38,239 bases of DNA, taken from contig JANYGI010000082.1 of the NCBI GenBank assembly GCA_025362495.1, positions 1 to 38,239 of the forward strand, read 5' to 3'. The notes below the pieces were generated by a model. It did no database searches. It was given only the letters and a program-made list of their open reading frames with translations, and had not been told where the DNA came from. Origin of the DNA: Byssovorax sp. Lineage in GTDB: Bacteria; Myxococcota_A; Polyangia; Polyangiales; Polyangiaceae. The number at the start of each line of letters is the position of its first letter. Within the stretch, counting starts at the first letter, position 1. The translations under genes and the position numbers were made by a program. Below, in pieces: positions 5,107-22,112 of this stretch.

Positions 5107-6345
5107 ATGCGATATGAAACTGCGCTAGCGATCGTCACCGCCGTCGCGACCTCGACGACCACCGGCTGCTACTCGACGTGGGATGTGGCGCCGCGGTCGC
5201 TGGTGCGACTCGACAGCTTTCGCGCCGGCCAGACACGCCAGATCGAGCGCGCCGACGGCGACGGAGAGGTCGAGTTCAACGCCGACACCGAGCTTCGCAT
5301 CCTCGACATCGACGGCCGCGGGGTCGCCGCGCGCCTGAGCTCGGTCGACGTGCGCGGGCCGCTGCTGGTCGGGGTGGAACGCAGCAGCAACGCGCCGATC
5401 ACCGTCAACCTCGCGCGGACAGCCTCGGTCCAGGCGCGGAGGTTCTCCGTCGGCAAGACGGTTGGCCTGTCGGTCGGCCTCGGGCTCGGCGTCCCCGCGG
5501 CGACCCTGGGGATCGCGATTGCCATCCTCGCGAGCACGGGCGGCTTCGGCAGCGGCCGCCCGTTGCGGGTGCGAGACCAGGCTGCGGCCGTGCGCGCCCG
5601 GCTGCGGCTCGATCCGCGCGGGCGCACGGCGAGGCGACGCGAGAGCGGATCACCCGCAGACGCGGTGGACGACGCGACGCGCGCGCGGATCTTCGCTCAC
5701 TGGGCCAGCGAAGCCAGCGCGGAGTGCGCGTCGGTCCCGGCGTTCCTGGCGCTGGCGCGCGATCTGCGGCTGGCCTCGGCGCCGACCCGGCTCGTGGAAG
5801 ACGCGCTCTCTGCCGCGCGCGAGGAGGCGAATCACACCGAGCTGTGCGCCGAGCTGGCCAGCGCGCAATCGCCGGTGCCGGTCACCGCCTCGACGCCGCT
5901 GACGCCGCCGAACACCGATGGAGATCGCCGGGCGCTCCTCCTGCGTCTGGCGACGGAGGCCCTCTGGGACGGATGCGTGGCCGAGGGAGTCGCGGCCGCC
6001 GTCGCGCGGCGATCGGCGCCGCTCGCGCGCGATGAAGCGACGAATCGAGCCCTGTCCATCATCGCTCGCGACGAGCAGGGCCACGCCGATCTGGCGAGGC
6101 ACGTGCTCGCTCATTGCCTGTCTGCGGGGGGCCGCTCGATCCGCGACGCCCTCGTCGAGAGCTTCGAGACGCGGCGCGACGAGGAAGAGGCGCTGATGGA
6201 CCCGGGTGAGCGCGGCGACGCGCCCGGCATCGATGAGGACGTCGCGCGGAGGCACGGTATCGCCGGGAATGCCATCCTGCGAGCCGCGCGCGGCGAGGTC
6301 CGGGAGCGGACGCTGGCGCTGGTCGGCCACACCGTTCGCGCTTGA
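5107..6345 (+). CDS. Lipid-anchored membrane protein with C-terminal ferritin-like diiron domain
   Basis: 412 residues. The N-terminus looks like a lipoprotein signal with Thr-Thr-Gly-Cys21, a relaxed lipobox. Residues 25-110 are a beta-rich region, 117-143 a Gly/Ala/Leu membrane segment, and 155-183 an Arg-rich stretch. From about 190 onwards is a helical domain with the metal-ligand pattern of ferritin-like four-helix bundles: E202/E206, E240-A-N-H243, E284/E293 and E323-Q-G-H326, giving two ExxH motifs. Family knowledge supports a carboxylate-bridged diiron site that could handle iron, peroxide or an oxidation. The substrate is unknown, and the side of the membrane for the bundle is uncertain because a lipid anchor plus a helix would place it back inside. 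The same strand continues into another lipoprotein gene. Confidence 0.7.
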   Translation: MRYETALAIVTAVATSTTTGCYSTWDVAPRSLVRLDSFRAGQTRQIERADGDGEVEFNADTELRILDIDGRGVAARLSSVDVRGPLLVGVERSSNAPITVNLARTASVQARRFSVGKTVGLSVGLGLGVPAATLGIAIAILASTGGFGSGRPLRVRDQAAAVRARLRLDPRGRTARRRESGSPADAVDDATRARIFAHWASEASAECASVPAFLALARDLRLASAPTRLVEDALSAAREEANHTELCAELASAQSPVPVTASTPLTPPNTDGDRRALLLRLATEALWDGCVAEGVAAAVARRSAPLARDEATNRALSIIARDEQGHADLARHVLAHCLSAGGRSIRDALVESFETRRDEEEALMDPGERGDAPGIDEDVARRHGIAGNAILRAARGEVRERTLALVGHTVRA

Positions 6346-6421
6346 CGCCTGTCTCTCGACGGCCTCTCTCTCCCTCGTGAGCCGGCGTGACGGATCCAGT
6401 TCAACTCCACGAGGCATATCC

Positions 6422-7762
6422 ATGCGATCTCTGTTCCGGATGATGAGCACGATGGCGATCGTCGGTGTCGGCCTCGGCGGCGCGGGCGGCGCCGCGCTGA
6501 TGGCCTGCGGATCGTCCCCGCAAAATCCGCTGACGACGACCACGAGCGGCGGTGGCGGCGCGGGCGGCGCTGCACCGCAGTCGACGAGCAGCGGCTCCGG
6601 CGCGACCACCGCGTCCACGGGCACCACCGTCACCGCGGGCGCCGGGGGTGCCGGGGGTGCCGATGCCGCGCCTCCGCCGGACGACGCTGCGCCCGTCTAT
6701 CCGGCGTTCCAGCCCAAGGTGCAACAGGTCCTGAGCAACGGTGGTCCGGTGCTCGCTGCGCCGCAGATCGTCCCCATCGTGTTCCCCGCCTCGAGCTTCG
6801 AGACCGAGACTGCCGACTTCGTGAGCAAGGCCGTCACCTCGACGGAATGGATGGCGCAGCTCGCCGAGTACGGAGTCGGCGCGGGGACGTCGGTGGACCC
6901 GATCGCCGCCGCGGCGCTCCCGGGCAAGAACATCACGAAGGCCGACCTCGAGGCGTTCATCGTCCAGCAGATTGGCAGCGGGGCCTGGGGCACGCCGGAC
7001 ACGACCGAGTTTGGCAGCCAGTATTACGTGCTCTTCCTCCCGAAGGTGGTCAGCATCGCTCTCCCGATCGGCAAGAACACCTGCAACGGTGGGCCGGTCG
7101 GATATCACAACGAGGTCGTCGTGGGCGCGACGCACGTGCCGTATGCCGTGGTGGCCAATTGCAACGACGTCATCGACCAGGTGACGCGCACGGCCTGGCA
7201 CGAGATCGTCGAGGGCTGCGCCGATCCCTTTGCGGCGCCGAATCGTGCCTATTTCAAGGTTGGCGCGGCCTGGTCGCACGCCTTCGTGGGGGGCGAGATC
7301 GGCGACATGTGCGAGCACCGCACCGACGCCAAGAGCACGCCCACGGACATCGGCTATGCCATCCAGACCATGTGGTCCAACGCCGCGGCGCTCGCGTACC
7401 ACGATCCCTGCATCCCCGCGGCGAGCATGCCGTACTTCGCCGCTGCTCCCGTGTTGCCCGACATGGTGACTCTGCTCCAGGCGAGCGTGCCTGGCGTGAA
7501 GATCCCGGTCGGCTCGTCACAGACCATCGAGGTTCAGCTCTTCAGCGATGGTCCGACGCCGGGGCCGTGGGACGTGAGCGCGAAGGAGTCCCTCGGCGGG
7601 ACCACGCTGGCGTTTCAGTGGGACAAGACCTCGGGGCAGAACGGCGAGGTTCTCCATCTGACCATCACCGCGATGGCGGAGGCGATGGGCGGGACGACGT
7701 TCGAGATCGCGAGCTCGCTCGGCGCGGCCTCGTCGCAGTGGGTGGGCGCCGTGGAGAACTAG
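6422..7762 (+). CDS. Secreted lipoprotein with HExxE motif, putative metallopeptidase-like
   Basis: 446 residues from the ATG at 6422, chosen because GAGG lies eight bases upstream and the signal peptide starts there. The lipobox is A-L-M-A-C29, then a Gly/Ser/Thr linker to about residue 80. The core (about 95-335) contains H260-E-I-V-E264-G-C-A-D-P followed about 25 residues later by G-G-E-I-G-D-M-C297. This pair of motifs recurs in families of secreted bacterial proteins where it reads HELxEAxTDP...GEIGDLC, reminiscent of EXORDIUM/Phi_1-like folds. His and Glu could bind zinc, but peptidase activity is inference. A C-terminal beta-rich domain (about 345-446) may be a binding module. The gene follows the diiron lipoprotein gene by 76 nt on the same strand and may be co-transcribed. 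Confidence 0.65.
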   Translation: MRSLFRMMSTMAIVGVGLGGAGGAALMACGSSPQNPLTTTTSGGGGAGGAAPQSTSSGSGATTASTGTTVTAGAGGAGGADAAPPPDDAAPVYPAFQPKVQQVLSNGGPVLAAPQIVPIVFPASSFETETADFVSKAVTSTEWMAQLAEYGVGAGTSVDPIAAAALPGKNITKADLEAFIVQQIGSGAWGTPDTTEFGSQYYVLFLPKVVSIALPIGKNTCNGGPVGYHNEVVVGATHVPYAVVANCNDVIDQVTRTAWHEIVEGCADPFAAPNRAYFKVGAAWSHAFVGGEIGDMCEHRTDAKSTPTDIGYAIQTMWSNAAALAYHDPCIPAASMPYFAAAPVLPDMVTLLQASVPGVKIPVGSSQTIEVQLFSDGPTPGPWDVSAKESLGGTTLAFQWDKTSGQNGEVLHLTITAMAEAMGGTTFEIASSLGAASSQWVGAVEN

Positions 7763-7778
7763 CGATCTCGCGCGACGA

Positions 7779-8936
7779 TCAGCGCCAGCCGAAGGCGCGC
7801 TCGTAGCTCCCGAGGACCTCGACGGCGCCCCGAGCGTCCTTCACGGCGAGGCTCAACCGGCCGTCCTGCGAGGCGATGATCGCGGCCGCTTCGCCCGGCT
7901 GGCGCAGGCAGAAGATCACGCCCGCCGGGTGCCGCGTGCCCTTGAACGTCGACAGATCGTCGATGTGCACGTCGTCCGAGTAGGGGCTCACGTGCTCGAA
8001 GCTGTGCTGCGGCGCGTCCGCCTCGACGACCTGCACGCCGAAGCCTCGCACGCGCAGATCGGTGTCGAGCAAGAGGGCGTTGTCGATCGCGGTCAAGCGC
8101 GCCACGAAGTCCACCGCGTCGTCGGCGCGGAGCTGCGCCGCGTCGCGCACGTGCACGTGACCGTCGGCGCTCCGCGCGCGCGTCGTGGCGATCCGCGCGA
8201 GCCGCTCGTCCGCGGTCACGCTCGCGACGAGCTCGGCGTAGCGCTGCGCGAGCACGTCGCAGCCGGCGCCGACGGCGTAGTGCACGCGCACGCCCGCGGG
8301 CTCGCGCGCCTCGGCCGGCACGATCAGGATCATCCCGCCGTGGCCGTGCTCGAGCGCGCGCGCCGCGATGCGCGTGACGATCGCCGCCCGCGGATCGACC
8401 CGCGTGGTCGCGTCGGCCGATTTGCTCCAGCACTTGAACGCCGCCGTGAGCCGCCGCGCCGACGACTTCACCTCGTGCGCGCCGCCGAGCAGGAGGATCT
8501 CGCCGCGCGTGTAGAGCGCGCGCGGGATCCCGCCGAGCTCGACGCGGAGCACGCCGGGCGCGAGCGCGCGGATCGTGAGCGGCTGCTCCTGCGCCTCGTT
8601 CTGCTGCAGGAGCGCCCACACCACGAGATCGTCGCCCTCGCGGCGCACCGCCATCGCCGTCGCGTCGCGCGCCGTCGCGGGCGCGAGCTTGGCCACGTTC
8701 TTCGGCGTGGCGTGCACGGGCCGGGCGATCGCGAACACCGCGCGATCGGCGCTGACGTCGTTCATCCACGCCATCGTGAACGCCAGCCGCTGCCCCTCCT
8801 CCTCGTTCAGGCTCGCGAAGAAGGCGATCTGCACCAGCAACCGGAGCTCGCGCGCGGAGGGCAAGCCCGGTCCGTCGAGGTGAGCGCCGAGCGCGTCCGC
8901 GAACTGATCCGGTGATCCAAGGCGCTCTTCAATCAA
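7779..8936 (-). CDS. Diadenylate-cyclase-like (DisA_N/DAC) domain protein with altered active site
   Basis: 385 residues. An in-frame stop lies two codons upstream, and TTG at 8936 is the only start that keeps the N-terminus, so it is moderately secure. The N-terminal domain (about 25-150) has the L-L-x-x-A-F-F-A-S-L-x-x-E-E-G-Q pattern I associate with the DACNV sensor domain. The C-terminal region (about 270-370) resembles the DAC domain that makes c-di-AMP from two ATP. Its catalytic signatures are changed: D285-N-A instead of D-G-A, and G-T-R-H-P337 instead of G-T-R-H-R. The protein may be inactive and bind a nucleotide, or make another product. No signal peptide or membrane segment is seen. 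It points away from its neighbours, so context adds little. Confidence 0.65.
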   Translation of the reverse strand: MIEERLGSPDQFADALGAHLDGPGLPSARELRLLVQIAFFASLNEEEGQRLAFTMAWMNDVSADRAVFAIARPVHATPKNVAKLAPATARDATAMAVRREGDDLVVWALLQQNEAQEQPLTIRALAPGVLRVELGGIPRALYTRGEILLLGGAHEVKSSARRLTAAFKCWSKSADATTRVDPRAAIVTRIAARALEHGHGGMILIVPAEAREPAGVRVHYAVGAGCDVLAQRYAELVASVTADERLARIATTRARSADGHVHVRDAAQLRADDAVDFVARLTAIDNALLLDTDLRVRGFGVQVVEADAPQHSFEHVSPYSDDVHIDDLSTFKGTRHPAGVIFCLRQPGEAAAIIASQDGRLSLAVKDARGAVEVLGSYERAFGWR

Positions 8937-9085: not shown

Positions 9086-9409
9086 ATGAAGTGGATTCTT
9101 GTCTCGATCGGGATGGCGGCGGCGCTGGCGATGACGGCGTGCGGCGGCAAGGTGGTCGTCGACGGGAACGGCGGCGGCGGCGGCGGCACGGGCGGCGCGG
9201 GCGGCGCGCCGCCGACCCCGGTGGCGTGCCCGAGCGATGCGTCGTTCAGCGATCCCGCGGTCATGGACCTCGTCGGCAAGGCCTGCATCCCGGACCAGGC
9301 CGTGTGCGCGTCGAACGATGGTTGCGGGGGCTGCTCGGTCACCTGCACCGGCGGCATCTGGAAGTCGACGAACGCCGATCTCTGCTTCTCCGTCGGCGGG
9401 ACCTGCTGA
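9086..9409 (+). CDS. Small Cys-rich lipoprotein
   Basis: 107 residues. The signal peptide ends in A-M-T-A-C19, so it should be lipid-anchored. A Gly/Ala linker (about 26-42) leads to a short domain with seven cysteines (from A-C-P-S onward), suggesting a disulphide-rich extracytoplasmic fold. I recognise no family. It starts divergently from the DAC-like gene, and the next gene lies 54 nt downstream on the same strand. Function unknown. Confidence 0.65.
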   Translation: MKWILVSIGMAAALAMTACGGKVVVDGNGGGGGGTGGAGGAPPTPVACPSDASFSDPAVMDLVGKACIPDQAVCASNDGCGGCSVTCTGGIWKSTNADLCFSVGGTC

Positions 9410-9463: not shown

Positions 9464-10720
9464 ATGAGATACCTCTTCGGCGACTCGACGCCCTTCCCCC
9501 TGCCCTTCGACTTCCTGCGCACGCTCGAGGCCTTCATGTCGGCGGCGACGCGCGTCGTGCTGCTCGAGCACCAGGCGCGCAAGCTCTCCGAGGAGACGTT
9601 CTCGAAGCAGCAGGCGCGCGCCAAGGGCCTGGAGACGCTGGGTCGCTTTCACGACACGGTGCTGCGATCGTTCGGCGAAGCGGCGATGCCGCAGCACGCC
9701 TTCGCGGTCGCGTACGCGCAGCGGATGGCCGAGCGCGCCGTCGGCCTCGTGACCGAGCAGCGCCGCGCGGTGCAGGAGGCCGACGATCAGGGCGAGGCTC
9801 GCCTGCGCAGCGAGAGTGAGCGCGCCGGCGAGGAGAGCAAGGCGCTTTTCCGCACGTTCTTCCAGACGGCGCGCCTCGCCGTGGAGAGCACGCGGCTCGC
9901 GACGACGCTCGTCGACGGCCGCCCCGACGCGCGCGCCTCGCTGGTGCATCCCGGCGGCATCGGCGTGTCGTTCACGATCGGCACGGCGAAGGCGCCGGCG
10001 TGGAGCGCGCCGCGCAAGCTGTCCGAGCTCGGCGGCCACCTCGAGCTGATGGTGGGCATCAAGAAGAGCTGGATCGGCGGCAAGATCAGCCTCGAGCCGC
10101 TGCGCCTCGACGACTGGGTGGTGGGCTCGGCCGAGCTCGACGACACCACCGCGACGATCGCCGTGCGCAAGAAGCCGGACCAGAAGGACACGCTGATCTT
10201 CAAGCTGCGGCGCGAGCAGGGCGGGTTCGCGGCCGACGTCGAGCACCCCGGCGATCCCAACGCCGAGAGCGTCCCCGCGGCCGCCGAGGCGGCGGACCTC
10301 GTGCACCTGGAGCGCCTGTGGACCGCGCTCGCCGCGACGTTCGACGGCATCCTCGAGGACCGCGCGGCCATCACCGCCGTCACGCTCGACGGCGAGGACG
10401 TGTTCGAGCGCAGGCTCGGCGAGAAGCTGGTGGACCGCCTCGTGACCGTCCTCGCGCCGACGACGCTCGAGGTCGCGCGCCGCAGCCCCAACCAGCACGA
10501 GCTGTCGTTGAAGCGCGAGAGCAGCGACGGCCGCCGCGAGGAGTTCTACCTCAAGCGCGATAACCTGCTCGAAGGACTCCAGCCCTTGCCCCGCGAGGGA
10601 CGCGCGGTGTTCGCCCCGCTGGGACTCGATGGCTGGGTGCCCGCGACGACGGTGCGCCCGCCCGAGGTGGCGCCGGGGAGGACCGAAGAGCTGATGTCGA
10701 TCGACATCGAAGAGGGGTAG
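9464..10720 (+). CDS. Hypothetical cytoplasmic protein, 418 residues
   Basis: 418 residues with no signal peptide, membrane segment or motif I recognise. The start (M-R-Y-L-F-G-D-S-T-P-F-P) is protein-like and the ATG is the first in a frame that differs from its neighbours. Residues about 28-150 are rich in Ala, Glu, Arg and Gln and look like a long alpha-helical or coiled-coil region. Residues about 165-250 look beta-rich, and the C-terminal part (about 275-418) is mixed. Charged composition and strong third-position G/C argue that it is real. It is convergent with the kinase operon, with about 100 nt between the ends. I cannot assign a function. Confidence 0.7.
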   Translation: MRYLFGDSTPFPLPFDFLRTLEAFMSAATRVVLLEHQARKLSEETFSKQQARAKGLETLGRFHDTVLRSFGEAAMPQHAFAVAYAQRMAERAVGLVTEQRRAVQEADDQGEARLRSESERAGEESKALFRTFFQTARLAVESTRLATTLVDGRPDARASLVHPGGIGVSFTIGTAKAPAWSAPRKLSELGGHLELMVGIKKSWIGGKISLEPLRLDDWVVGSAELDDTTATIAVRKKPDQKDTLIFKLRREQGGFAADVEHPGDPNAESVPAAAEAADLVHLERLWTALAATFDGILEDRAAITAVTLDGEDVFERRLGEKLVDRLVTVLAPTTLEVARRSPNQHELSLKRESSDGRREEFYLKRDNLLEGLQPLPREGRAVFAPLGLDGWVPATTVRPPEVAPGRTEELMSIDIEEG

Positions 10721-16623: not shown

Positions 16624-18936
16624 CTATTTCCCGAGCGCTTCGGCCCGGTTCACGATGCGGGGCGTGAGAAAGATGACGAGCTCGCTGCGGCTGTCCGAGG
16701 CGCGGCGGCGCTGGAAGAGCACGCCGAGGATCGGGATGTCGCCGAGCAGCGGGAGCTGGTCGAGGTTGCGGCCGGTGTTGCGCGTGAAGATGCCGCCGAT
16801 GACCGCCGTGTGGCCGTCCATGATCAGGAGATCGGTCTCGGCCTCGCGCTTGAGGATCGTCGGATCGCCGCGCGCCGAGGTCTGGTTGAAGTCCGGCTCG
16901 TCGCGGTTGATCCGCACGTGCATCGCGACGCTGCCGTCCGACGTGACGTGGGGCCGCACGATGAGCTGGAGCTTGGCTTCCTGGAACGTGGTCTGGACAC
17001 CCTGCGCGCTGATCTGCGAAAACGGGATCAACGTGCCCTGGCTGATGCGGGCCTCGCGGTTGTCGAGCGTGAGGATGCGCGGGCTCGAGATGATGCGGAG
17101 CATGCCGCTCGACTCGGCCGCGGAGAGGCGGACGGAGAGGTTGACCGCGTTGTTGATCGAGCCGAGGTTGAAGCCGATCGCGCCGCCTTGCCCGGTGCCC
17201 ACGGTGGCCGGGAGGTTGACGGCGAAGTTCGGCGTCGAGACCGAGTTCGAGAACGGCGAGAGGCCGGCCGTCGGCGTCTGCTGATCGCTGGCGCCGCCGA
17301 CGAGGCCGATCGACGAGGGGAACGCGATGCCGGTGGGGTTGCCCGTCGCGGCGCTGAACGTGGCGTCGCCGCCCCACTGGATGCCGACGTCGCGGAGGTA
17401 CTTGCTCGTGGCCTCGACGATGCGCGCCTCGATCAGCACCTGCGGCGTCTGCGTGTCGAGCGAGTGGACGAGCTCTTCGATCTGGTTGAGGTTGCCGGCC
17501 ACGTCGCGGGCGACGATGACGTTGGTGCGCTCGTCGACGGCGACCGAGCCGCGCGGCGACATCAGATCCTTGGCGCGCTCGACCAGCTCCTTGGCCTCGG
17601 CGTACGAGACGGGGATGAGGCGAGTCTCGACCGGCGCGAGCTGGAGCTCGCTCTTGCGCCGCGCGATGGCGAGCTCGCGCTCCTTGTTGAGATCGGCGAG
17701 GGGCGCGACGCGGATCATGTTGCCCTGGCGGATCATGCCGAGGCCCTTGGCCTGGAGCACGGTCTCGAGGGCCTGATCCCAGGCGACGTTGCTCATCTTG
17801 ATCGTCACGGTGCCGGTGACAGCGTCGGAGACGACGATGTTGACCTTGCCGACGTCGGAGAAGAGGCGGAGCACCTCGTGGACGGGAGAGTCCTTGAGAT
17901 CGAGGTTGATCCGGCGGCCGTTGAAGCGGCGCTGCTGGCTCGCCGTGGTCGGGAGGAAGGCGTCGGCCTGGTCGGCCTCGGTCATCGACTCGCGCGCGCC
18001 GGCCGAGGCCTCGAACGTCGTCTCGACGCGCGGGACCTCGCTGTCGAACGACGCTTCGCGAGCCACCGTGCGCGACTTCCGCGCGGCGCCGCCGTCGGAC
18101 GCGACGCCCGAGACCGCCGAGGGAACAGGCCCCGTCGAGAAGGTGTAGACGATGGCGTTGCCCTCGCGCGCGGCCGTGCCGGACGCGTCGGAGGCGCGAT
18201 CGATCTCGAGGACGACGTGGTTGGGATCGCTGTTCTTGCGGTAGGTCGAGACGGCATGAACCGGCCCGCCGAAGGCCCCGGTGTCGAGCTTGCGCTGGAG
18301 CGACTCGGGGAGGCGAACGCCCGTCAAATCAAGCGTGGATCGACCGGTCTTGCCCTCGCCCGCGGAGAAGTCGGCGGGGCCCGAGAGCTCGACGATGATC
18401 CGATCGCGCGAGGGCTGGTGCTCGAAGCGAACGTCGGTGAGCGTGGCCGCCTCGGCCTTCGCCAGCGCCTTGCCAGTCGCGCGCGCGGGGGCGGTACCCA
18501 TCGGCGCCGTTTTGTCCGCCGAGACGAGGCCGACCTGGAGGCCGTCGGGGCCGGCCGAGATGCGGTATTCGGCCTGGTGCGCGAGCTGGATCAGGATCCG
18601 CGTGGTCGTCTCGCCCTGCCCCTGCTGGCGGAAGGCCTGGGTCATCACGCCGGCAACGACGGGGTTACCCTTGGTGATCGCCGCGGGCGCGCCCTGCACG
18701 TCGGCGGTGTCGAGATCGACGATGAGCCGCATCCCGCCGTCGGCGACCCGGGCCGCGAAATGCGGGGAGCCCGTCGTGGCGATCGTGATCTCGGCCGCCC
18801 CTTCGCGCGGGGACGAGAGCGTCACATTCTTCACGTGGAGCGGCGCGGCCGCGGCGGGGATGGCCGCGGACAGCACGCTCACGAGCAAGGCGAGGCCGAC
18901 GGGGCATCGGCGCGCGCGGACCAGTTGAATCTTCAT
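16624..18936 (-). CDS. pilQ: Type IV pilus outer-membrane secretin PilQ
   Basis: 770 residues from the ATG at 18936, which has GGGAG five bases upstream. Signal peptide about 1-31; two AMIN-like beta-domains at about 33-140 and 165-270 (peptidoglycan or pole anchoring); a Ser/Ala/Glu-rich linker about 275-335; the STN domain at about 340-405 (I-N-L-D-L-K-D-S-P-V-H-E-V-L); an N1/NolW domain about 435-495; and the secretin barrel about 498-762 with V-L-I-E-A-R-I-V-E and the C-terminal P-x-L-G-D-I-P-I-L-G block. It forms the outer-membrane pore for the pilus. Shorter than the roughly 900-residue Myxococcus protein. It is preceded by pilMNOP and separated from pilP by 96 nt. Confidence 0.96.
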   Translation of the reverse strand: MKIQLVRARRCPVGLALLVSVLSAAIPAAAAPLHVKNVTLSSPREGAAEITIATTGSPHFAARVADGGMRLIVDLDTADVQGAPAAITKGNPVVAGVMTQAFRQQGQGETTTRILIQLAHQAEYRISAGPDGLQVGLVSADKTAPMGTAPARATGKALAKAEAATLTDVRFEHQPSRDRIIVELSGPADFSAGEGKTGRSTLDLTGVRLPESLQRKLDTGAFGGPVHAVSTYRKNSDPNHVVLEIDRASDASGTAAREGNAIVYTFSTGPVPSAVSGVASDGGAARKSRTVAREASFDSEVPRVETTFEASAGARESMTEADQADAFLPTTASQQRRFNGRRINLDLKDSPVHEVLRLFSDVGKVNIVVSDAVTGTVTIKMSNVAWDQALETVLQAKGLGMIRQGNMIRVAPLADLNKERELAIARRKSELQLAPVETRLIPVSYAEAKELVERAKDLMSPRGSVAVDERTNVIVARDVAGNLNQIEELVHSLDTQTPQVLIEARIVEATSKYLRDVGIQWGGDATFSAATGNPTGIAFPSSIGLVGGASDQQTPTAGLSPFSNSVSTPNFAVNLPATVGTGQGGAIGFNLGSINNAVNLSVRLSAAESSGMLRIISSPRILTLDNREARISQGTLIPFSQISAQGVQTTFQEAKLQLIVRPHVTSDGSVAMHVRINRDEPDFNQTSARGDPTILKREAETDLLIMDGHTAVIGGIFTRNTGRNLDQLPLLGDIPILGVLFQRRRASDSRSELVIFLTPRIVNRAEALGK

Positions 18937-19032
18937 CGCTCTCCCGCTGGATGACGGCTCTGTCGTCACCGGGGGCGAGCCTAGATCGGCGGCCCCGAAC
19001 GGGCCCAATTCGTGGCGGAGTTTTCCGCGGCG

Positions 19033-19698
19033 CTACCGGTTGCCGGCCTTCTGGCCAGCCTCTTCCTCCGGCGTACGGAGGGCGATCACCCGCGTGGTAG
19101 GCGGGATTTCGGGGTGCGACGGGTCCTCGCGGATGAAGACGACGTCCCCGTCGCGGATGCGGTCGACGCGCCAGTTGACGGCGACGTCGGTGCCAGTCGG
19201 TCCGCCCGCGTGGACGAGCTCGGACTTGCCCACGAAGTCGCCGACCTTGGCGACCCAGCCGAGCGCGCCCGGATCGATCAGCAGCGCGCGCGACGGCGAG
19301 CCGAGGACGATGCCCACGAGCTTGAGCTCGTCGAGCGCGTACCGATCGACGAGGACCTTGCGCTGGAGGACGCTGTGCGACGCCGCCTGCTGCACGAAGA
19401 CCTGGACGAAGCTGCGGAACGGATCGCGGCTCTGATCGGTCTCGGCGAAATCGCGCTCCTGGAACTCGCGCAGCGGGAGCGCGGGGAGCTTCGAGGCGAC
19501 GGGCGCGCCGGCGTCGGCGTCAGCCGGCGCGGCCGCGACGGGCGCGGGCGCGGGCGCGACGATGCCGCCCACCGGCGCGGCGGAGCCGGGGCGAGTGATG
19601 CCGCCCGCGGGCGGATCGCTGCCGCACGCCGCGAGCGCCGTCGCCAGCGGCAGCGCGACGAGCGCGGAGAAGAGGCGGTGCCGGACGGTGCGCTTCAA
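19033..19698 (-). CDS. pilP: Type IV pilus inner-membrane lipoprotein PilP
   Basis: 221 residues from a TTG at 19698, whose bases overlap the pilO stop as TTGA. A GGAG/AAGG ribosome site precedes it and no other start would keep the signal peptide. The signal ends in A-L-A-A-C25. An Ala/Pro-rich linker (about 28-75) leads to the PilP beta-domain (about 85-205): F-x-x-x-D-Q-S-R-D-P-F-R, L-D-E-L-K-L-V-G-I-V-L, A-L-L-I-D-P, V-A-K-V-G-D-F-V-G and the closing I-R-D-G-D-V-V-F-I-R-E-D. PilP bridges the PilNO ring to the secretin across the periplasm. Rare-codon start plus overlap suggests its level is set by PilO translation. Confidence 0.93.
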   Translation of the reverse strand: MKRTVRHRLFSALVALPLATALAACGSDPPAGGITRPGSAAPVGGIVAPAPAPVAAAPADADAGAPVASKLPALPLREFQERDFAETDQSRDPFRSFVQVFVQQAASHSVLQRKVLVDRYALDELKLVGIVLGSPSRALLIDPGALGWVAKVGDFVGKSELVHAGGPTGTDVAVNWRVDRIRDGDVVFIREDPSHPEIPPTTRVIALRTPEEEAGQKAGNR

Positions 19699-20333
19699 TG
19701 CCCTTCTCCTGGTGCGGCGCCGGGGCGTCGCTTCGCTGCGGCCTCGCCCGGCCGGCTCGATCGGAACGCGGTGGCGAGGCACTCGACCTCGACCTGGACC
19801 TCGTCGCCGCTGGTCTTCGGGTTCTTGATGTGGATGTCTTCCACGTTGATGATCCGATCGAGCTGGCCGACGCCGTGGAAGAACTTCGCGACCTGGTGGA
19901 ACTTGCCCGCCAGCGTGAGCTTCATCGGCACCTTGGCGTAGAACTCTTGCGGCTGCTCTTCCATCGGCGTCCACGAGGTGAGGTTGACGCCGGAGAGCGT
20001 GGCCACCCCTTGCAGCGCCGCGAGGAACGCGGGCGTCTCGGGATCGTCGGGCAGGATCTTCTTCTGCTCGAGGGCGAGCTGCTCGCGGCGCGTCTTCTCG
20101 TCGAGGTCCTTCTGGTACTCGGCCTTCGACGTCTCGGCCTTGTCGAGCTGCGCCTCCAGGCTGTGCTGGCTGTTCTGCGCCGACTCGATCTCGGTCTCGA
20201 GATCGCCGTGAAAAATCACGAAGTAGACGATGCCGACGAGGAAGAAGAAGAGGAAGCCGACGCCGACCTTGGCGATGGGCGAGAGGCGGTCGAGCGTGGA
20301 GCCGCCCGCCGGGGCCTGGGGCTTGGGGGCCAT
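19695..20333 (-). CDS. pilO: Type IV pilus alignment protein PilO
   Basis: 212 residues, starting one base after the pilN stop (TGAGATG). A short Pro-rich cytoplasmic tail is followed by one membrane helix (about 22-41), a coiled-coil rich in Glu/Lys/Gln (about 45-95) and a ferredoxin-like periplasmic domain (about 100-190) with P-M-K-L-T-L-A-G-K-F-H-Q-V-A-K-F-F and I-I-N-V-E-D-I-H-I typical of PilO. It dimerises with PilN to form the inner-membrane alignment ring that carries PilP and PilQ. The tail (about 192-212) is Arg/Ala/Gly-rich, beyond the core domain. Confidence 0.94.
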   Translation of the reverse strand: MAPKPQAPAGGSTLDRLSPIAKVGVGFLFFFLVGIVYFVIFHGDLETEIESAQNSQHSLEAQLDKAETSKAEYQKDLDEKTRREQLALEQKKILPDDPETPAFLAALQGVATLSGVNLTSWTPMEEQPQEFYAKVPMKLTLAGKFHQVAKFFHGVGQLDRIINVEDIHIKNPKTSGDEVQVEVECLATAFRSSRPGEAAAKRRPGAAPGEGH

Positions 20334-20334
20334 C

Positions 20335-20979
20335 TCAGTACCTGACCTTCAGTTGCAGCGCGAAGTTGACGACCTCGAGCTTGGCGTTCTTCTCGGCCTC
20401 TTTTTTCCCGGGGAGCAGCGTCACGTCGTAGAAATACGACGAGAGCTTGAGGCGCTGCGCGAGCTCGGCGACGTCGTTGCCGTCGCGCGCGAGGCCCTCG
20501 AAGCGCACGGTGCGCTCCGACTCGAGGTAGCTCGTGAGCCAGAGCCGGCGGCTGTCCCACCCGGGGAAATACACCAGGTTCGGGTTCTCGCGCCGCAGCG
20601 TGGCGAGGCGATCGGGATCCGTCGTCGGGCCCTTGCCCGGCGTGAGGAGCTGCGCGAGCTCGAGCAGCACGGCCGTGGGGCCGCTGCGCGCCGACTGCAG
20701 CTTGGCGATCGCGTCCTCGCGCGCGCGGAGGAGCGCGAGCGATTTCTTGATGTCCTCGTGGTTCGAGACCAGCTTGTTGATGTCGGTGATCTGCCCCTGG
20801 ATGCGGGCGTTCTTGGCCTTCTGATCGGCGAGCTCTTCGCGCTTCTTCTCGTAGAACAGGAAGAGCGCGACGACCTCGACGACGAGGACGCCAGCGACGA
20901 TGAGGAGCCAGCGCTGGCTCTGCTGAGGCGCGGCGGAGCGGGCCCCGCGCTTCTGCGGAAGGAGGTTTACCCTGATCAC
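20335..20979 (-). CDS. pilN: Type IV pilus assembly protein PilN
   Basis: 214 residues from a GTG at 20979 that overlaps the pilM stop as GTGA. The conserved cytoplasmic N-terminus I-R-V-N-L-L-P, which docks into a groove of PilM, is followed by a membrane helix (about 23-42), a coiled-coil (about 45-95) and a ferredoxin-like periplasmic domain (about 110-205). It pairs with PilO and connects the cytoplasmic PilM ring to the periplasmic alignment complex. The frame continues upstream through pilM, but the GTG before I-R-V-N is the only sensible start. Confidence 0.94.
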   Translation of the reverse strand: MIRVNLLPQKRGARSAAPQQSQRWLLIVAGVLVVEVVALFLFYEKKREELADQKAKNARIQGQITDINKLVSNHEDIKKSLALLRAREDAIAKLQSARSGPTAVLLELAQLLTPGKGPTTDPDRLATLRRENPNLVYFPGWDSRRLWLTSYLESERTVRFEGLARDGNDVAELAQRLKLSSYFYDVTLLPGKKEAEKNAKLEVVNFALQLKVRY

Positions 20980-22037
20980 ACGCGCCTCTCTCGATCTTTC
21001 CGCATCGCCAGCCCGAGCGCCACGGAGAACTGCGCGACGCGGGCCCGTAAGAGCTCCTGGCTGACCTCTTTGGCTTCGACGCTGATGCGCTCCATCGGCT
21101 GGAGCACCTCGACGGCGACGCGCGATCGACGGCCGATGGCCTGCGCCAGGGCCGGCAAATTCGAAGTGCCGCCGGTGAGGTAGATGCGGTGCATCTCGGG
21201 CTCGCCGCTCGTGGCCATGAAGAAGTCGAGCGAGCGCTGGATCTCGCCGGCGATGGAGTCGCTCACCGTCTCGATCACCTGGTGCACCTGTGCGGGCACG
21301 GCGCCCGCGTCGGCGCTGACGCTGGCGCACTTGAACTCTTCGGCCTGATCGAACGACACGTTGAGCTGCCGCTGGATCTGCTCGGTGATGTAGTTGCCGC
21401 CGTTGGCGATGTCGCGCGTGAAGGCGCTGGCGCCGCGCGAGATGATGTTGATCGACGCCAGGCTCGCGCCGACGTTGATGATCGCGAACGTCTGATCCGG
21501 CGGGATCCCCCGGCTGAGCTCGAAGAGGTTCTGCACGGTGAAGGCGTCGATGTCGACGACCATGGGCTTGAGCTTCGCGGAGCGGGCGATCTGCGTGTAG
21601 TCGTTGATCTCGTCGCGCTTCGCCGCCACGAGCAAGAGGTCCATCTGGCCGGCCTCGGGGCGCCGGCGCAGCACCTCGTAGTCGACGTGAACATCCTTGA
21701 TGTCGAAGGGGATGTGCTGCTCCGCCTCCCACTGGATCTGCTCGTCGAGCTCGGCTGCCGTCATCATCGGGACCGAGATCTTGCGGATGATCACCGCCTG
21801 GCCGCTGATGCTGAGGGCGATCTCTTTCTGGCGGATCTTGGCCTCGCTGAAGGCGCGACCCAGCCCCTCGATCACGGCCTGCGCGTTCATCACGTGGCCG
21901 TCGACGATCGACTGCGGGGGGAGCGGCGTGTAGCCGAGGCGCACGAGCCCATAGCCTTTTCGGCTCTCCTTCAACTGACACACCTTTATCGAGCTCGATC
22001 CGATATCGACCCCGATCAGGTTCTTGCCTTCGGACAT
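20976..22037 (-). CDS. pilM: Type IV pilus actin-like ATPase PilM
   Basis: 353 residues from the ATG at 22037, with GGAG four bases before it. An in-frame start 24 codons upstream would add residues that do not fit the family. The actin/FtsA-type fold shows L-I-G-V-D-I-G-S-S-S-I-K-V near 7-19, a second phosphate-binding segment around I-N-V-G-A-S-L-A-S (about 190-198), and the adenosine motif Y-L-T-G-G-T-S-N-L-P near 294-303. PilM forms a cytoplasmic ring around the PilN tails in the pilus machine. It is first of pilMNOPQ. Its leader holds a strong hairpin and a terminator-like element. The motor and pilin genes are not in this window. Confidence 0.96.
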   Translation of the reverse strand: MSEGKNLIGVDIGSSSIKVCQLKESRKGYGLVRLGYTPLPPQSIVDGHVMNAQAVIEGLGRAFSEAKIRQKEIALSISGQAVIIRKISVPMMTAAELDEQIQWEAEQHIPFDIKDVHVDYEVLRRRPEAGQMDLLLVAAKRDEINDYTQIARSAKLKPMVVDIDAFTVQNLFELSRGIPPDQTFAIINVGASLASINIISRGASAFTRDIANGGNYITEQIQRQLNVSFDQAEEFKCASVSADAGAVPAQVHQVIETVSDSIAGEIQRSLDFFMATSGEPEMHRIYLTGGTSNLPALAQAIGRRSRVAVEVLQPMERISVEAKEVSQELLRARVAQFSVALGLAMRKDRERRV

Positions 22038-22060
22038 GCGGCTCCGGTGCTCGCAGCAGT

Positions 22061-22083
22061 GGGTCCCCTGAATGCAGGGGCCC
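22061..22083 (-). promoter_or_regulatory. Hairpin in the pilM leader
   Basis: CCCCTG (22065-22070) and CAGGGG (22075-22080) pair across a 4-base loop, and GGG (22061-22063) can pair with CCC (22081-22083) across one unpaired T. In the minus-strand mRNA this stable stem ends 23 nt before the pilM ATG, so it could affect ribosome access or mRNA stability. There is no U-tract, so it is not a terminator. Function is inferred. Confidence 0.4.
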
Positions 22084-22112
22084 GGGTTCGGGGTCGCGAA
22101 CGACTCCATCGT

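Follow-up and report, generated by a model that had tools for sequence, protein, structure and literature searches.

A conserved DACNV-DAC variant with altered DGA and RHR signatures in a Byssovorax genome

The DGA and RHR motifs are taken to mark an active diadenylate cyclase (DAC), but a natural pair of proteins, one of them encoded by Byssovorax sp., has both motifs broken and a conserved pocket. Is such a protein a dead enzyme, an enzyme with another product, or a cyclase that still works? The preliminary description of the Byssovorax gene, made from sequence, had proposed either a dead cyclase that senses nucleotides or a cyclase with a new product. The pair makes two questions testable, namely how much each signature residue counts and what DACNV-DAC proteins do. 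We analysed a contig of 38,239 nucleotides (GCA_025362495.1, JANYGI010000082.1), here called the window. The gene lies where the preliminary description had placed it, and its frame, the strand of which had been left unstated, runs from 8936 to 7779 on the minus strand. The gene and its domains are as follows.

7779 to 8936, minus strand: DACNV-DAC protein gene, TTG start, 385 aa, stop codon included
8487 to 8936, minus strand: N-terminal domain, residues 1-150, with a DAC-like fold in structure prediction that sequence profiles do not support
8610 to 8864, minus strand: DACNV domain (PF21751), residues 25-109, E 9.1e-14, 51.9 bits
7803 to 8396, minus strand: DAC-fold domain, residues 181-378, from the predicted model and a family-profile alignment

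The GC content by codon position (0.75/0.49/0.95 over the 385-codon frame) and a start position that matches the GTG start of a relative from genome G231 with 60% identity (MIEER / MNEER) indicate that the 385-aa frame is a real gene. The open frame, the codon-position GC and the dN/dS ratio around D285 argue against a pseudogene, a reading we rejected. A protein without kin was rejected too, as the family is matched at E ≤ 1e-6 in 64 genomes out of 317 from the class; in a sample of the phylum, 19 of 377 genomes gave a match, 18 of them from the same class and one, with a partial match, from outside it. By position the gene stands alone, divergent from an ORF at 9086 (plus strand) and convergent with one ending at 7762 (plus strand). 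In the two neighbourhoods compared we saw no conserved operon partner: the four neighbouring window ORFs (5107-6345, 6206-7762, 9086-9409 and 9464-10720) have no Pfam match, and the G231 relative is flanked by a gene that looks like an epimerase and by two ORFs that Pfam does not match. A plasmid-borne protein, a phage protein and a defence gene were considered and rejected, with no plasmid match, no PHROGs match (two proteins scanned) and no PADLOC match (five proteins scanned). The protein under study is the single DACNV protein of its genome. Both this genome and that of G231 carry another DAC with intact DGA, RHR and SEE motifs, which in the window genome is closest to the CdaA model (188.6 bits against a cut-off of 188.8). 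The DACNV-DAC gene is therefore not needed as a supply of c-di-AMP.

The N-terminal half of the protein belongs to the DACNV family, its 51.9 bits over residues 25-109 standing well above the curated cut-off of 27. Sequence searches placed the C-terminal half less directly. The query itself gave no PF02457 match at E ≤ 1 and stays below the curated cut-off of that family, no NCBIfam family (DisA and the DacZ model NF041371 included) was matched at E ≤ 1, and a sequence search of the PDB returned two matches only, at E 0.54 and 0.87, both unrelated. A Pfam match to Ald_Xan_dh_C (residues 231-312, E 0.018, below the cut-off) was taken as chance. Among the aligned family members, 53 of 60 reach PF02457 at E ≤ 0.01, the best at only 2.2e-7. 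Aligned with hhalign to 18 PF02457 domains of the class, the family profile matched with a probability of 93% and an E-value of 2.9e-7, in a register that equates DNA with DGA, GTRHP with GTRHR and SQD with SEE, as the preliminary description had assumed; a profile of only two rows (the query and its nearest relative) gave E 0.15 in a wrong register and is no alignment by itself. The AlphaFold2 model of the whole protein has a pLDDT of 81 and a pTM of 0.77. With this model, the best 50 of 268 Foldseek matches are all DAC proteins, two of them at E ≤ 0.001 (best 5e-4). In a VIA-align comparison, the C-terminal domain superposed on M. tuberculosis DisA with Z 12.4 and an rmsd of 2.2 Å over 122 residues, and the top 40 entries listed are all DACs, the next row having Z 5.9. 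On the predicted structure, the C-terminal domain is a DAC fold. The profile-profile comparison and the superposition on DisA, checks of the kind that the preliminary description had proposed, bear out its reading of a DAC-like C-terminal region, and the Pfam match that of a DACNV-like N-terminal domain.

The counterparts of the DAC motifs can be read in this register, with counts taken over 78 aligned family members.

8322 to 8339, minus strand: G200-G-M-I-L-I, counterpart of GALI; G200 in 78/78, position 202 variable
8076 to 8084, minus strand: D285-N286-A287, counterpart of DGA; Asp kept in 78/78, Gly replaced by Asn, N286 in 3/78
7926 to 7940, minus strand: G333-T334-R335-H336-P337, counterpart of GTRHR; R335 and H336 in 78/78, last Arg replaced by Pro
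7863 to 7871, minus strand: S356-Q357-D358, counterpart of SEE (metal site); Ser and Asp in 78/78

The residue numbers given earlier for the DNA and GTRHP motifs proved correct, and the printed sequence, checked by eye, holds no canonical DGA or RHR elsewhere. The DGA motif keeps its Asp and Ala and has lost its Gly; the GxRHRxA motif reads G-T-R-H-P-A-G, with both the last Arg and the last Ala replaced. On the adenine side, the Leu of GALI is Met202, in a column that varies across the family. Of the side chains (D; T, R, H; S; E) with which CdaA contacts ribose, phosphate and metal, all are retained, save that the Glu is an Asp in the query, as in all 78 members. It had been said that both catalytic signatures are altered: two signature residues have indeed changed, but the wording overstates the case, as D285, T-R-H, the Ser and the metal-position acid are kept. 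A helix predicted by AlphaFold2 at residues 335-345 begins at the GTRHP motif, and a Pro in its first turn may be tolerable.

How much these two positions matter can be judged in part from published work. The CdaA contacts to ribose, phosphate and metal come from the Asp of DGA, from T, R and H in GTRHR, from a Ser and from an acidic residue; neither the DGA Gly nor the last RHR Arg figures among the listed ATP contacts. The ribose, phosphate and metal contacts are kept, and of the two unlisted positions one tolerates Ala in M. tuberculosis DacA and the other is not Arg in DacZ-type proteins, so that a dead enzyme is not to be predicted from the changes by themselves, and the earlier choice between a dead cyclase and a new product is supported only in part. 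According to the mutant passages on M. tuberculosis DacA, replacing the DGA Gly with Ala retained the ATP shift and activity, whereas changing RHR to AAA abolished both ATP binding and activity (PMC3328451). The corresponding passages report CdaS as dead with DGA or RHR changed to AAA (PMC4568413) and CdaM as dead in double or triple Ala mutants of DGA/RHR (PMC13022847). A single mutant of the last RHR Arg does not figure in these passages on DacA, CdaS and CdaM. The passage on H. volcanii DacZ describes c-di-AMP synthesis in vitro, and the same source gives E. coli as lacking a DAC (PMC6741144). A search of a library of open-access papers found none on DACNV, on four sister names or on tandem or degenerate DACs. 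We know of no assay on any DACNV-DAC protein.

Natural variation within the family bears on the same question. Relatives were gathered by whole-genome searches, which yielded 91 rows; 13 were left out (ten short ones, including the distant L150, two partial and one frameshifted), and 78 were counted. The query is one of these, as are L005, which has no DACNV, comes from an IS-interrupted gene and is non-Arg at 337, and L129, which ends at a contig end. D285, R335, H336, S356, D358, G200 and G300 are invariant in all 78, and G333 is found in 77/78, T334 in 67/78 and Gly at position 286 in 75/78. Residue 337 varies, with Arg in 60 members and another residue in 18 (Q in six, H in three, N, P, A and G in two each, K in one). 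Three of the omitted rows also read differently here: L134, a 174-aa fragment, has GTHHR, L137 has GTRHS, and L150, from outside the class, has GARYN, so that L134 and L150 break the invariance of R335 and H336 seen in the counted rows. On a tree built without columns 286 and 337, which is a quick one with long branches and leaves the place of the query beyond its sister unsure, Arg and non-Arg switched at position 337 at least eight times and Gly and non-Gly at position 286 twice. Glu302 was considered as a salt-bridge partner of residue 337 and rejected; it pairs with Arg337 in raw counts, but independent pairs are not significant. L070 (G099:C2), a distant DACNV-DAC protein, combines DNA with an intact GSRHR and is a second origin of N286 on the tree.

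As a control we took 75 PF02457 loci of the class, a best-scoring plus hand-picked set and not a random one, in which 57 loci have the last Arg and 18 have M, T, V or A in its place. Fifty-two of the 75 fit the strict pattern, and every one of these has the Gly, the SEE motif and the last Arg; the remaining 23 were read by eye, and five of them have the Arg. In the ten of the 18 non-Arg loci that were scanned, DacZ was the best match throughout, always below the cut-off, and in nine of the 57 Arg loci the best NCBIfam matches were CdaA, CdaS or DisA models, likewise below the cut-off. Two haloarchaeal DacZ proteins, above the NF041371 cut-off, read GTRHH and keep the Gly of DGA. By this control, the last Arg of RHR looks fixed outside DacZ and DACNV-DAC proteins. 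The 18 loci without it (L192 and L214 to L230) are themselves an observation in their own right, being DacZ-like DACs of this class, as judged from the ten scanned.

Within the family, N286 and P337 occur together only in the query and in one relative, encoded in genome G231 (contig C93, JAFAOG010000284.1, a Deltaproteobacteria MAG). This protein has DNA, GTRHP and SQD; its contig is 3.9 kb long, and the contamination given for the MAG is 5%. It is the only other double-altered protein found, from one of 30 genomes of its family, and a pattern scan gave none further. The two proteins are 96% identical over residues 279-304 and 92% over residues 331-366, as compared with 49% in DACNV. Simple Nei-Gojobori estimates of dN/dS, made at very high GC, were 0.04 (279-304), 0.32 (331-366), 0.78 (DACNV) and 1.15 (110-180), with 0.63 overall. 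Taken together, the pocket windows have an identity of 95.7%, and the rest of the protein one of 50.9%. In 95 comparison pairs of similar background, pocket identity is 79.7% at most, although these pairs lack independence and the choice of the first windows followed inspection of the pair; with motif-centred windows or residues 279-366, again none of the pairs reached the query and its relative (0/57, 0/72, 0/128 and 0/105). Synonymous differences per site range from 0.26 (331-366) to 0.51 (305-330), with 0.36 around D285 and 0.37 in DACNV, which argues against a recent transfer of the pocket alone. In the only two sequences that have both changes, the altered pocket appears to be conserved for its protein sequence. 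The low dN/dS and the high identity of the pocket in this pair point to purifying selection, and the fact that a second genome has kept both changes suggests that it is the altered pocket that is under selection.

The query can be described as a two-domain DACNV-DAC family member of its class, and we would give about an even chance that it is an active c-di-AMP-type cyclase. The analysis shows the gene, its domains, the identity and conservation of the residues and the predicted fold; ATP binding, activity, product and regulation are what we infer in the following model. The C-terminal DAC domain would bind ATP and a divalent metal through D285, T334-R335-H336, S356 and D358, and two such pockets would face each other and join two ATP molecules into c-di-AMP. 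N286 and P337 would tune the pocket and not destroy it, while DACNV would regulate the cyclase, either as a ligand sensor or, as the predicted structure hints, as a degenerate DAC-like partner. All side chains in the CdaA contact set are kept or replaced as in every member (Glu to Asp), the DGA Gly tolerates Ala in the M. tuberculosis DacA passage and DacZ-type proteins do without the last Arg; moreover, that Arg has changed at least eight times while D285, R335, H336, S356 and D358 stayed constant in 78 members. The signs of purifying selection on the pocket of the altered pair and the place of the Pro in the first turn of a predicted helix point the same way. We count all of this for an active cyclase, and judge that the query most likely still binds ATP and probably still cyclises it. 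Against activity speak the dead multi-residue DGA/RHR mutants, the presence of the last Arg in most DACs of the class, the two omitted rows that break the invariance, the intact DAC in both genomes and the failure of the query to match PF02457. In addition, a conserved binding pocket fits a receptor equally well. The main rival, which we hold less likely, is an inactive DAC kept as a nucleotide sensor, whose pocket would bind ATP, ADP or the c-di-AMP made by the other DAC and signal to DACNV or to a partner. Such a sensor would agree with two signature positions that changed together and stayed together in G231, with a pocket more constrained than in the comparison pairs and with the presence of an intact DAC in both genomes. 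However, the Asp and the metal-position acid, dispensable for a pure receptor, are never lost in the 78 members, the two changes avoid the listed CdaA contacts, and the loss of Arg337 need not mark inactivity, since 18 members lack it.

An active cyclase with another product, such as a mixed or linear dinucleotide, would have Asn and Pro reshaping the nucleotide sites. N286 adjoins the ribose-binding Asp and the altered pocket is strongly conserved, as this reading would have it, but we saw no change in an adenine-site residue that would point to a different base, and two sequences with both changes are too few for finding further pocket-specific ones; we consider it unlikely. A decaying gene whose motifs have drifted is very improbable. 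Two relatives are interrupted by mobile-element genes and one is apparently frameshifted ahead of RHR, and over residues 110-180 the query pair has a dN/dS close to 1; against this, the frame is open over 385 codons with a strong third-position GC, and the altered residues and their surroundings have been kept in two proteins that share 60% identity, the dN/dS around D285 being low. With its ATP contacts retained and its pocket conserved, the protein seems to be a variant that has been maintained and not a degenerate remnant.

The N-terminal domain, named as a probable sensor domain, raises a question of its own. Modelled alone, residues 1-150 reach a pLDDT of 92, and DAC proteins fill the first 23 Foldseek rows, the best with E 0.0098 and a probability of 0.99 and not one at E ≤ 0.001; the row that follows has a probability of 0.06. 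In VIA-align, 40 DAC entries have Z 8.7 to 5.8 and the entry after them 4.0; TM-scores lie below 0.5, and all but one Z below 8. None of the 6589 aligned residues behind the model came from the C-terminal part, so that contamination of the alignment is discarded. By hhalign, DACNV matched the family's own DAC domain with a probability of 0.3 and A4 with 2.0, the maxima of 40 column shuffles being 0.7 and 1.1. As sequence profiles lend no support, the likeness between DACNV and DAC is one of predicted structures, which we regard as suggestive of a DAC-like fold. Glu47 is identical in all 76 members that have the DACNV region. Mammalian adenylyl cyclases pair two unlike halves. A bolder and rather unlikely proposal would be that DACNV is a degenerate DAC, that the protein is a tandem of pseudo-DAC and DAC forming an asymmetric, covalently linked cyclase pair, and that the altered pocket of this clade makes or reads a nucleotide beyond plain c-di-AMP. 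If DACNV truly were a pseudo-DAC, DACNV-DAC proteins would carry a built-in inactive partner.

Among known systems, the query is nearest to the other DACNV-DAC proteins of its class (PF21751 plus PF02457), with which it shares the domain order and the seven invariant residues and from which it differs by N286 and P337 (the latter in 2/78). The altered pair is a conserved variant inside this known kind. CdaA/DacA (L. monocytogenes, and B. subtilis CdaA) resembles the query in the DAC fold (Z about 10 to 11.6) and in the contact positions, but has a membrane part where the query has DACNV, and DGA/RHR/SEE where the query has DNA/RHP/SQD. DisA (M. tuberculosis, T. maritima) provides the best structural match of the C-terminal domain; its DAC, however, is at the N-terminus and that of the query at the C-terminus, and the query has no NCBIfam DisA match. 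DacZ (NF041371), like the query, has a residue other than Arg at the end of the RHR motif (GTRHH in haloarchaea; M, T, V or A in the 18 class loci), but differs in its N-terminal domain, the query does not match its model, and the haloarchaeal pair keeps the Gly of DGA.

Several loci met in the course of this work deserve mention. In L080 (4242-8058, G073:C41), IS21-type genes, with matches to IstB and to a Mu-type transposase, interrupt a DACNV-DAC gene whose DAC part reads DGM and GARHQ. In L133 (1672-4626, G291:C8), another DACNV-DAC gene is split by a transposase-like ORF of 407 aa, which may be IS110-like. L083 (6889-8119, G102:C1), closely related to the G099 protein that has GTRHN, appears to be frameshifted ahead of the RHR region. 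Finally, elsewhere in the window (16624-22109, minus strand), a run of ORFs resembles, by eye, the type IV pilus assembly genes pilM to pilQ.
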